64,000 nucleotides of DNA. Origin: an uncultured Nitrosomonadales bacterium. Its GTDB lineage: Bacteria; Pseudomonadota; Gammaproteobacteria; Burkholderiales; Methylophilaceae. The stretch spans positions 62,001 to 126,000 of the forward strand of contig CAJWVO010000001.1 of the NCBI GenBank assembly GCA_913048465.1. Reading direction: 5' to 3'. Below, piece after piece: positions 490 through 29,290 of this stretch (position 1 is the first letter of the stretch; each line of letters starts with the position of its first letter). The notes beneath the pieces were generated by a model, which was given only the letters and a program-made list of their open reading frames with translations, searched no databases and had not been told where the DNA came from. The position numbers and the translations under genes were made by a program.

Positions 490-1484
490 GTATCGAATTA
501 ATTTGGGCCATTATTTTGTGTTTTGCCATCTTTGCCTATGTTGTACTGGATGGGTTTGATCTCGGAATCGGCATCAACTATCCTTTCATATCATCCAAAT
601 GGGAAAGAGATATCGCTATGAATACCGTTGCACCCATTTGGGATGGAAATGAAACATGGCTTATTCTAGGTGGTGGTGGTTTATTTGCCGCTTTTCCATT
701 AGCTTATAGCGTAGTTCTTCCAGCGCTGTATGTGCCATTAACTGCCATGCTAATTGGTCTGATTTTAAGGGGTGTTGCTTTTGAATTCAGATGGAAGGAT
801 AAAAGCAAAACTCAGATTTGGGATAAGGCTTTTATAATCGGTTCGATTACAGCTACATTTTTTCAAGGTGTAGCACTCGGAGCTTTTCTTCAAGGAATAC
901 CAATTGAAGGTCGATCATTCAATGGAGATTGGTGGCACTGGCTCACACCATTTTCAATTTTCACTGGGATTGCGCTGATCTTTGGTTATGGTCTACTTGG
1001 ATCAACTTGGCTTATTTATAAAACAGAAAATAAAACAAAACGTCATATGCAATTTTTAGGCAAACGATTTTTTATTCTAACTCTCGTTATGATTTTAATT
1101 GTTAGCCTGTGGACACCTTATTTACACCCTGAGTATTTTCATAAGTGGTTTAGTTACCCTCGAATTCTTTATGTACTGCCTGTGCCATTGTTAGTTTTAA
1201 TTGCCACTGTATTTTGTTTTAGAGCATTAATTAAAAACTATGATTTTCAACCTTTTCTGTGGAGCATAGTATTATTTTTGCTATCGTTTATTGGTTTGAT
1301 GATTAGTATTTACCCCAACATCGTTCCACCAGGGCTTGATATTTGGCAGGCTGCAGCCCCTAAAAAAAGTTTACAATTCTTATTGATAGGCGTTCTAATT
1401 TTTATACCTATCATCATCGCTTACACTTCTTTTACTTATTGGGTTTTTCGTGGCAAAACCAAACCCAATGAAAGCTATCATTAA
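486..1484 (+). CDS. cydB: Cytochrome bd-type ubiquinol oxidase subunit II
   Basis: This is the 332-aa integral membrane partner of CydA, needed to assemble the bd oxidase. It has the conserved N-terminal LDGFDLGIG (residues 21-29), a WDGNETWL motif near residue 52, and about eight hydrophobic helices through to the C-terminus. Length and motifs fit the CydB/CioB family. The ATG overlaps the cydA stop. The TAA is followed directly by a TTG-initiated microprotein. The high-affinity oxidase would allow respiration at low oxygen or under inhibition of haem-copper oxidases (family knowledge). Confidence 0.95.
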   Translation: MSIELIWAIILCFAIFAYVVLDGFDLGIGINYPFISSKWERDIAMNTVAPIWDGNETWLILGGGGLFAAFPLAYSVVLPALYVPLTAMLIGLILRGVAFEFRWKDKSKTQIWDKAFIIGSITATFFQGVALGAFLQGIPIEGRSFNGDWWHWLTPFSIFTGIALIFGYGLLGSTWLIYKTENKTKRHMQFLGKRFFILTLVMILIVSLWTPYLHPEYFHKWFSYPRILYVLPVPLLVLIATVFCFRALIKNYDFQPFLWSIVLFLLSFIGLMISIYPNIVPPGLDIWQAAAPKKSLQFLLIGVLIFIPIIIAYTSFTYWVFRGKTKPNESYH

Positions 1485-1577
1485 TTGAAAAAAATAATTT
1501 ACTTTATTTTTATTTGGATTTTATCTGTGGGGTTTATTTCTCTGATTGGATATTTAATTAAACTATTGATTAAATAG
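1485..1577 (+). CDS. DUF2474-like bd-oxidase microprotein
   Basis: A 30-residue frame starts with TTG immediately after the cydB stop and reads MKKIIYFIFIWILSVG, then a hydrophobic stretch ending in YLIKLLIK. The short basic N-terminus, single transmembrane helix with W..SV spacing and basic C-terminus match my recollection of DUF2474 proteins, which follow cioAB in many proteobacteria and are thought to act as small accessory subunits of the oxidase. No separate ribosome-binding site is visible, so translation would depend on coupling to cydB. It ends one base before the end of the convergent gene at 1578. The family call is from pattern recognition only. Confidence 0.6.
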   Translation: MKKIIYFIFIWILSVGFISLIGYLIKLLIK

Positions 1578-1796
1578 TTATAAATCTAAATCAATATTTT
1601 TTACCGAATTCAAAAATTGAGGCTTAAATTTTGTTTTAGTCTTACCTTTTGTAATGGACACTTTTGAATTATTGTTAAGCTTGTCAGATTTCTGATCCAT
1701 TTCTTTAAATGCATAAATGATTGAATATAGCGCAATTAAAAATGAAAGGATAAGTATTAATGATAATAAAGGTAAAGATAACTCCATATCAACCAT
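1578..1796 (-). CDS. Small membrane protein downstream of pntB, unknown function
   Basis: This 72-aa protein has one N-terminal transmembrane helix (about residues 7-30) and a polar, lysine-rich C-terminal tail (SKVSITKGKTKTKFKPQF). I do not recognise a family. The ATG overlaps the pntB stop (TAATG), so it is almost certainly co-translated as the last gene of the gyrB-oxyR-pnt series. Topology suggests a membrane-anchored cytoplasmic tail. A role with transhydrogenase is only guilt by association. An alternative start is the methionine at residue 4. Confidence 0.6.
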   Translation of the reverse strand: MVDMELSLPLLSLILILSFLIALYSIIYAFKEMDQKSDKLNNNSKVSITKGKTKTKFKPQFLNSVKNIDLDL

Positions 1797-3166
1797 TATA
1801 AATCGTCTACAGCTTTTATTAAATCTTCAACGCACTCTTTTGCATCGCCCAAGAACATCATTGTTTTATCATCATAAAATAGCTCATTATCAAGTCCCGC
1901 ATAACCAACTCCCATTGTTCTCTTATTAACAATAATCGTTTTTGCTTTTTGTGCCTCCAAGATAGGCATCCCGTAGATTGCTGTCCCTGGCTTTTTAGCT
2001 GCGGGATTAACAACATCGTTTGCACCAATAACAAAAACCAGATCAGTATCAGAAAAGTCATTATTTATTTCTTCCATCTCAGAGACTTGATCATATGGAA
2101 CATCTGCCTCAGCCAAAAGGACATTCATGTGTCCCGGCATTCTTCCAGCGACTGGATGGATTGCATAACGAACATTAATATCTTTCTCTAGAAGTTTGTT
2201 TGTCAATTCTTGCAAAGCATGTTGAGCTCTTGCAACTGCTAACCCATATCCAGGGATAATAATTATATTTTCTGATGAGGTCATTAGATAAGCGACGTCT
2301 GCAGCTGAACCTGTTTTATGTTGTTTTTTATTTTCATCAACTGATGCTTCTGCTACATCCGATCCAAAGCCTCCAAGCAAAACAGAAATAATGGACCTGT
2401 TCATTGATTTGCACATGATGTATGACAAGATTGCGCCCGAAGATCCGACGCATGCTCCCGCGATAATTAATACAGAGTTATTTAAAGTAAAGCCAATTCC
2501 TGCCGCGGCCCATCCAGAATAACTATTTAACATCGATACAACAACAGGCATATCAGCACCACCTATGGGAATAATTAGTGTGATCCCCAAAATCAAAGCG
2601 CAACAATTCATTAATATAAAGGCAAGATTATTTTCGTAAATAAAAAAGATCATTCCAAAAATAATCATCAGAATAAAAATTAATAAATTTAATAGGTGTT
2701 GTCCTTTAAAAATAATTGTTTTTGAAATAAATTTTCCTGATAATTTTCCAAAAGCAACTAAGGACGCTGTAAATGTAATTGCGCCAATAAACGATCCTAA
2801 AAATAACTCTACTCTTTGCGTTGTTGAATATGTATTTGTGAAATTATAAATAGAAGCAAAGGCAATCAGCATAGCCGCCAAGCCTACAAAAGAATGCATT
2901 AAAGCAACCAATTCTGGCATTTTGGTCATATGTACTTTTTTTGCAATAACTAATCCTATTGCCCCACCAGCAAAGACTGAAATAGCGATAAGCCAAAAAA
3001 TATAATCTAGATTCATGCTTAGGGTAGTCATGACAGCAATAGTCATACCAATCATTCCATAATAATTTCCTCTTCTTGAAGATTGGGGAGAGGATAGGCC
3101 GCGCAATGCTAAGATGATTAGAATTGCCGATATCAAATACAGAGATAAATTTAGGGTCGTCGTCAT
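1796..3166 (-). CDS. pntB: NAD(P) transhydrogenase subunit beta
   Basis: This 456-aa subunit contributes most of the proton channel and the NADP(H)-binding domain III of the proton-translocating transhydrogenase, which uses proton motive force to make NADPH from NADH. The first ~250 residues are membrane helices. His91, in the block [16 protein letters not shown], matches the conserved proton-channel histidine. [19 protein letters not shown] lies at 202-220, and [10 protein letters not shown] (306-315) is the NADPH dinucleotide fold. The start overlaps the pntAB stop by 4 bases. With proteorhodopsin nearby, light-driven NADPH supply is a plausible link (inference). Confidence 0.97.
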
Positions 3167-28936: not shown

Positions 28937-28960
28937 ATGTTTAAAGCGAAGAGAGTTTAA
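28937..28960 (+). promoter_or_regulatory. Possible 7-residue leader peptide (MFKAKRV)
   Basis: ATG TTT AAA GCG AAG AGA GTT TAA is preceded by AAAGGAGTAAGG, a good ribosome-binding sequence with AAGG 7 bases from the ATG. It ends 41 bases before the 78-aa membrane protein gene. A basic leader peptide or a duplicated ribosome entry site are both possible. It could also be chance. Confidence 0.3.
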
Positions 28961-28970
28961 ACGTAATTTC

Positions 28971-28985: not shown

Positions 28986-29001
28986 TAAGGAGAAGTAATA
29001 G

Positions 29002-29238
29002 ATGGATATTTTAAAAACAGTAAGAAATTGGGCAGCTGCCCTTGCAGAGACTGTAATTAGTCTTTTAGCTCTTGGTATCGTTCTACAAATTCTCATGGGT
29101 GGCGCAGCTATCCCATTCTTTGGCGAACCAAGAATTATTGAAACTGTAACTGGCCATATTAATTCGCTTGGTGGCGAAGGTATAGTTGGTCTTGTAGCCA
29201 TCTGGGTGCTTTATTCTATTTGGAAAGCTCGTAAATAG
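29002..29238 (+). CDS. Small two-helix membrane protein upstream of proteorhodopsin, unknown function
   Basis: This 78-aa protein begins MDILKTVRNWAAALAETV and has hydrophobic segments at about residues 14-36 and 58-74. A glycine-rich polar stretch lies between them (GGAAIPFFGEPRIIETVTGHINSLGGEG), and it ends WKARK. I do not recognise a family. It has an excellent ribosome-binding site (AAGGAGAAG), its own perfect terminator 24 bases after the stop, and codons (GGT, CGT, ATC, TTC) like those of the ATP synthase genes. Together these suggest a strongly expressed monocistronic gene. It lies between glmS and proteorhodopsin. Any link to light energy is inference from position. Confidence 0.8.
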   Translation: MDILKTVRNWAAALAETVISLLALGIVLQILMGGAAIPFFGEPRIIETVTGHINSLGGEGIVGLVAIWVLYSIWKARK

Positions 29239-29261: not shown

Positions 29262-29290
29262 AAAAACCCTTGGAAACAAGGGTTTTTTTT
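29262..29290 (+). terminator. Intrinsic terminator after the 78-aa membrane protein
   Basis: AAAAACCCTTG and CAAGGGTTTTT form an 11-bp stem closed by a GAAA tetraloop, with a T-run of eight in total. This is a textbook strong terminator separating the small gene from proteorhodopsin. Confidence 0.92.

Follow-up and report, generated by a model that had tools for sequence, protein, structure and literature searches.

A 78-residue hairpin membrane protein of an OM43-clade genome belongs to a broad undescribed family of bacteria and tailed viruses

The window, i.e., the whole stretch of 64,000 nucleotides that was analyzed, comes from a 1.2-Mb genome in 46 contigs, and its nearest named relatives are OM43-clade Methylophilaceae, e.g., KB13, LSUCC0717, and HTCC2181. 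On its forward strand, between glmS and a rhodopsin gene, lies an ORF that starts with an ATG at 29002, ends with a stop codon at 29236-29238 and encodes a protein of 78 amino acids. The features of the locus are as follows:

28937..28963, + strand: conserved leader element ATGTTTAAAGNGNNGAGAGTTTAAACG, recognized by eye in six relatives
28987..28992, + strand: ribosome-binding site AAGGAG, read from the sequence, 9 nt before the ATG
29002..29238, + strand: gene of the 78-aa hairpin membrane protein, based on the ORF, AlphaFold2, amphipathicity tests, and selection
29262..29287, + strand: intrinsic terminator with an 11-bp stem and a GAAA loop, read from the sequence, stem kept in relatives

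Comparison of the window gene with its counterpart at locus L003 gave a pS of 0.36 and a pN of 0, the comparison with L007 gave a dS of 1.9 and a dN of 0.077, and three named genomes encode the identical protein; the 78-aa ORF is certainly coding, and purifying selection on it is strong within OM43-clade Methylophilaceae. A preliminary description of this DNA had pointed to a strong ribosome-binding site and a GAAA-loop terminator, and both were borne out. Of the six relatives printed, five have AAGGAG upstream of the gene and the sixth has AGGAG, and the arms of the terminator stem, AAAAACCCTTG and CAAGGGTTTTT, with the GAAA loop between them, are kept in five relatives printed, the loop being changed in two of them (L005 and L006). 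The hairpin was absent from the list of an automatic terminator scan, which we think is because of the T-run inside its stem. The 27-nt leader element is conserved in six relatives with one mismatch, in L007, and occurs once in the window, where 0.01 copies of its 24-nt core are expected; it reads as a putative seven-codon uORF (MFKAKRV in the window) or a putative promoter/operator. Two further remarks of the preliminary description fared less well. The codon choice, described as ATP-synthase-like, is not distinctive, since 14 of the 58 other window ORFs of at least 90 aa have a higher codon index than the 0.654 of this gene (reference, nine ATP-synthase ORFs), and 63 of 193 windows of 78 codons have an index at least equal to it. 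Likewise, intergenic space is not spared at this gene, with 192 nt before it and 227 nt after it. Its broader statement, that this is a real, undescribed membrane protein with an independently transcribed-looking gene, stood, and many homologs were found.

The AlphaFold2 models of the window protein (helices 2-32, 45-58, and 61-77; mean pLDDT 76, pTM 0.44) and of a viral copy (helices 2-31, 45-58, and 61-75; pLDDT 79, pTM 0.50) agree with each other, and the predicted monomer runs from an amphipathic helix through a first transmembrane helix, a loop, and a second amphipathic helix to a second transmembrane helix. Together with amphipathicity, the models place the elements as follows:

Residues 2-14: amphipathic helix H1 (AlphaFold2 and amphipathicity)
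Residues about 14-32: transmembrane helix TM1 (AlphaFold2 and amphipathicity)
Residues 33-44: loop (AlphaFold2)
Residues 45-58: amphipathic helix H2 (AlphaFold2 and amphipathicity)
Residues 61-75: transmembrane helix TM2, with a basic C-terminus after it (AlphaFold2 and amphipathicity)

The two helices joined by a Gly-rich loop that had been read from the sequence earlier are thus roughly right, except that a further interfacial helix precedes TM2 in the AlphaFold2 model. Over 101 thinned sequences, the hydrophobic moments of H1 and H2 exceeded those of shuffles (0 of 2000 as high; p 0.001), whereas the moments of TM1 and TM2 did not exceed the shuffles (p 0.67 and 0.32), indicating that there is no polar pore face. 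Basic ends combined with a net acidic loop, seen in most groups, argue for an orientation with both termini inside; as regards the loop, the two OM43 paralogs and three other gammaproteobacterial members are exceptions. The most conserved sites include G60 (95%), F39 (92%), G57 (88%), G33 (82%), and G63 (77%), and at position 16, where TM1 begins, 65% of sequences have E or D and 21% have K or G.

The homolog search called for in the preliminary description was productive, in that the family was found in the OM43 genus, in two other orders, in another class, and in IMG/VR viruses. Within the OM43 genus, 26 of 31 genomes carry the 78-aa gene, the source genome of the window included, and a profile of OM43 copies plus one more distant member detected the family in four other genomes when 369 genomes of the class were searched. 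With a wider profile it was found in 100 of 121 genomes (0.7-1.8 Mb) of a first order, which is probably SAR86, and in 36 of the 39 most complete of these, as well as in 49 of 83 genomes of a second order, probably the SUP05 group. The other class, probably the Alphaproteobacteria, has the family in 31 of 289 genomes by the broader profile A3, one of these matches being weak; the match in G1028 of that class is doubtful (506-aa frame, E 4e-4). The narrower profile A2 yielded no convincing new member in a 398-genome sample of the phylum, its two matches outside the source genome, in G616 (inside a larger membrane protein) and G601 (a 50-aa frame overlapping another ORF), being judged false, and the distribution counts depend on the profile, because the broader A3 then found the 31 of 289 in one class. 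A Eubacteriales match (L024) with 31% identity in a gapped alignment was judged to be due to chance. Together, these data show that the window gene is a member of a broad undescribed family of about 72-80 aa with two predicted transmembrane helices, whose units are single genes or same-strand neighboring pairs in unrelated gene contexts with no tie to rhodopsin, the flanking genes differing between groups. One gammaproteobacterial member (L052/L057) has a long Lys/Thr-rich C-terminal tail and 183 aa in all. In the second order, the family was not found in any of the 12 genomes of g141 or in 11 of the 12 of g276, most of which are near complete; these may be symbionts, in which case a free-living role of the family would fit.

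The family often occurs in pairs. All of the 30 best-scoring loci opened in the first order contain a same-strand pair with the copies 10-82 nt apart, while of 30 loci opened in the second order nine have two copies, one has three, 18 have one, and two have none in the ORF list. For the first order, the neighboring genes are what we take to be pnp and ychF relatives, and the 3-kb loci hold pnp in 24 of 30 and ychF in 22 of 30 cases, both in 18 and neither in two. Trees were built after thinning near-identical rows to 105, and the p-AU tree on the 97 rows left after eight long-branched or far rows were dropped. Each of the two first-order copy types (13 and 17 thinned rows) forms a clade (99/93; 99 and 84 in a quick tree), and the duplication is therefore old. 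A further clade of 24 rows (98/86) unites the OM43 copies, two of their paralogs, and the first viral type, and the marine viral types form a separate clade (94/87). A topology with all viral copies in a single clade gave a p-AU of 0.078, which is not decisive on a single viral origin. In profile-profile comparison, the main family groups matched each other at 99.1-99.7%, as opposed to 0.1-0.3% for an unrelated membrane family, and the OM43 copies together with one viral type matched the first-order members at 99.1% and the other-class members at 99.5%. The values for the main groups support a single family for the hairpin proteins. For the most divergent pair partners, three sequences in all, the match to the family taken as a whole was 96.8% and those to two of the groups were 89.9 and 79.8%, but the match to the OM43 subset was only 2.6%.

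The rhodopsin beside the 78-aa gene is probably of the xantho-like type, because OM43 is said, in the portion of the source available (PMC6794327), to carry that type only. Its adjacency on the same strand in 10 of 22 OM43 loci (L002-L009, L011, and L012) speaks for the suggestion, made in the preliminary description, that the 78-aa protein is associated with the light pump, i.e., that it is an accessory subunit of the rhodopsin. Against this, the remaining 12 loci have no rhodopsin within the examined stretch, some of these stretches being short, and the gene still lies downstream of glmS in them wherever glmS is included; in the rhodopsin-less loci opened it adjoins other genes, e.g., those of small multi-TM proteins that are presumably DUF3147-like. 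In genome G018 the family gene at 817,730 is more than 500 kb away from the rhodopsins at 284,275 and 285,057. Among the 31 genomes of the OM43 genus, several of which are incomplete, 24 have gene and rhodopsin, two the gene only (one of these is 92% complete), two rhodopsin only, and three neither. The corresponding numbers in the 83 genomes of the second order are 11, 38, two, and 32, so that 38 of the 49 gene-bearing genomes have no rhodopsin match and homologs do not follow rhodopsin. In addition, the conserved terminator lies between the two genes. The rhodopsin-partner reading is thus largely refuted, and an accessory subunit is hardly credible. At HTCC2181-type loci, a second copy with 33-36% identity was seen between the 78-aa gene and the rhodopsin, at these positions:

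L009, 6309-6533: second family copy
L011, 842-1072: second family copy
L012, 374-604: second family copy

Searches of known families and structures gave no clear match of the window protein to a known unrelated family in Pfam, NCBIfam, PHROGs, PDB, or BFVD, in agreement with the preliminary description. No Pfam or NCBIfam family was found for it at E ≤ 10, and the one PHROGs match had an E of 0.42. Among the matches listed for family members, the best in Pfam, NCBIfam, and PHROGs had E values of 0.0038, 0.0002, and 0.0075, for few members each, and those with known cut-offs fall far below them. The matches listed from the three databases for the window protein and family members include no holin-named family and one endolysin-named PHROG (E 0.9). 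PDB sequences had no match with profile A2 and two chance-level matches alone with profile A5 (E 0.41 and 1.9), and Foldseek found no fold match in PDB or BFVD. Two members from the other class gave weak full-length HMM matches (E 0.00025 and 0.0013) to the T4SS pilin-like DUF2976/TIGR03745, but they score 20.8 and 18.5 against a cut-off of 52.5 bits, and the hairpin family, unlike these pilins, has no signal peptide and a net acidic loop; of above-cut-off homology, a signal peptide, and a basic inner loop, it thus shows none. This homology was rejected at ≤4.6% in hhalign (8 DUF2976 sequences), two halves of the DUF2976 set reaching 99.9% as positive control. ATP synthase subunit c was likewise rejected, because the window protein has no match in Pfam and its TM2 lacks an acidic residue. 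Among the papers listed by literature searches none names the family, which is undescribed.

The IMG/VR set comprises at least 165 viral loci with one family member each, 119 of them distinct by protein and upstream sequence; one scan contributed the best 80 of 108, and some contigs were brought in by two queries. With Pfam names taken from one representative per neighbor cluster, 42 of the 119 distinct copies adjoin a T4 baseplate protein and a 72-aa ORF, 38 adjoin dUTPase, often with Hsp20 and clamp-loader genes, six adjoin what we take to be a polymerase, or a phosphoribosyltransferase, 10 lie directly before a SleB-type hydrolase, and 23 have other contexts. The nearest records to the baseplate neighbor are large myophages with ≤35% identity, which makes these viruses only loosely T4-type. 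Many tailed viruses thus have a family member, surrounded by genes of tailed phages. In 54 of the 119 viral copies, a [C/G]TAAATA box, presumably resembling a T4-type late promoter, lies 36-81 nt before the ATG, and of the other ORFs at these loci 20 of 737 have one; this comparison is not a statistical test because the motif was chosen after viewing the sequences and the loci are related. By context, the box precedes 27 of 42 copies at the baseplate (all at 48-61 nt before the ATG), 7 of 38 at dUTPase, none of six at polymerase or phosphoribosyltransferase, 6 of 10 at SleB, and 14 of 23 elsewhere. For the dUTPase type, the sequences inspected show the box overlapping the end of the gene before it, and it may not be a promoter. 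Over longest-ORF starts of the first viral type, CTAAATA is unremarkable (12 of 414), which we think is because many starts of the family are internal to longer frames or masked by antisense frames. The partial text of a report on an OM43 T4-like myophage gives 15 late promoters (PMC9004378). A tblastn search of INPHARED phages with four family members as queries gave no match; with masking on, q78 and L046 find 163 and 165 of the 165 viral loci, so low-complexity masking does not explain the null for these two, whereas it may account for it with the remaining two queries, which find 65 and 100 of the 165 loci. Viral scans queried with cellular members of other orders, two in all, found none. 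An 89.5-kb contig of an OM43-genus bin (L046, G029:C2) has phage-like genes and a family member beside a SleB-like hydrolase, its 75-aa protein being identical to one in an IMG/VR contig.

A hairpin of two transmembrane helices fits many roles. Our tentative reading, which we consider possible at best, is that of an autonomous, oligomer-forming organizing protein of the inner membrane that is also carried by phages. The protein would sit in the inner membrane with both ends cytoplasmic, H1 lying along the inner and H2 along the outer side. Where TM2 begins, a conserved G60-x-x-G63-x-x-A66 stripe may let this helix pack against TM1, itself, or the paired paralog. A small self-assembling packing or stress-buffering protein of this kind would change a bulk property of the membrane such as its order, curvature, or leakiness; for that reason it would need no fixed gene partner, and phages would carry their own copy, apparently often late-expressed, for the membrane of the infected cell. 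The lack of a fixed gene partner agrees with a protein acting on the membrane itself, and the anatomy of the hairpin appears to suit a self-packing, membrane-acting protein more than it does a water-filled channel. In style, the Hli (high-light-inducible) proteins, small membrane proteins of cyanobacterial hosts and cyanophages, may come closest as a precedent. Like these, the hairpin family consists of small autonomous membrane proteins present in several copies in hosts and carried by phages, but it has two transmembrane helices and other hosts, and we know of no sequence relation to Hli and of no pigment motif in the hairpin family.

Class II holins are about 70 aa long with two transmembrane helices, both ends inside, and a basic C-terminus, and pinholins also have no strongly polar face. 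The hairpin proteins resemble class II holins and the S21 pinholin in all these traits of size, basic C-terminus and, as predicted, topology. The viral copies might accordingly permeabilize or depolarize the inner membrane late in infection, the bacterial copies and pairs being domesticated holin/antiholin-like proteins, which we regard as rather unlikely. Such a pore is nevertheless the main rival of our reading. The strongest pointer to it is that the gene lies directly upstream of one hydrolase cluster in 23 of the 165 viral loci (10 of 119 distinct), the representative tested being Hydrolase_2 (SleB) with a signal-like N-terminus; the box before the 54 viral copies described above also speaks for it. 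The available portion of the OM43 myophage paper, in which a curli pore is proposed to act like a pinholin, contains no word beginning with holin (PMC9004378). However, of the nine among 30 longer contigs searched that have SleB, five have it beside the family gene and four 16-29 kb away. In one of the latter (L303, about 1282-3090) the SleB lysin overlaps a separate hydrophobic ORF of 105 aa and is followed by ORFs whose N-termini look lipoprotein-like, likely a separate lysis cassette. Moreover, 44 of the 119 distinct copies lie among dUTPase/Hsp20/clamp-loader or polymerase/phosphoribosyltransferase genes, with the box in 7 of the 44. Unlike class II holins, the family has no holin-family match, has two interfacial helices, lies mostly away from lysins, and is retained by the majority of genomes in entire bacterial groups. 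In the one viral lineage with the gene beside the lysin it may act in lysis; these data do not extend such a role to the family in general.

A small osmotic or mechanosensitive valve replacing MscL in streamlined bacteria would account for the presence of MscL in none of 31 same-genus genomes as against 24 of 30 more distant relatives. MscL runs from an amphipathic helix through TM1, an outer loop, and TM2 to a basic end, an order of elements that the hairpin protein shares. The hairpin protein is shorter, though, and has no C-terminal bundle, and MscL (PF01741) homology was rejected at 0.3-3.4% in hhalign with 21 MscL sequences, which leaves the valve a weak rival only. Genome reduction alone can explain the loss of MscL, no polar face is seen on the transmembrane helices, and viral carriage would be unexplained; we consider a valve improbable. 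A T4 Imm-style superinfection exclusion protein, with which phages would keep out rivals and bacteria would keep out phages, is very improbable to us, even if a small protein with two transmembrane helices is common to tailed viruses and bacteria and clamp-loader or polymerase genes are close to some of the viral copies. T4 imm lies in the clamp-loader/polymerase region and is an early gene, whereas the late-promoter-like box precedes nearly half of the viral copies. Imm_superinfect was not among the matches listed for the window protein (E ≤ 10) or for sets of 17 and 21 members (E ≤ 1) in Pfam scans in which the HMMER filters drop most weak matches, and presence in most genomes of an order would be unusual for a defense gene.

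The roles weighed here, membrane organizer, pore, valve, and exclusion factor, give different read-outs. A bolder version of our preferred reading, that one ancient hairpin family controls inner-membrane integrity in pelagic bacteria and that late-expressed versions of tailed phages take over this control, is doubtful at present; under it, the conserved bacterial pairs could form a built-in agonist/antagonist (holin/antiholin-like) switch for membrane leakiness or lysis. What we describe is a membrane protein of most genomes of a whole order, scattered elsewhere and common to many viruses, for which Pfam, NCBIfam, and PHROGs have no model. Genes retained in small genomes and also carried by phages frequently bear on a limiting step of cell physiology or infection.
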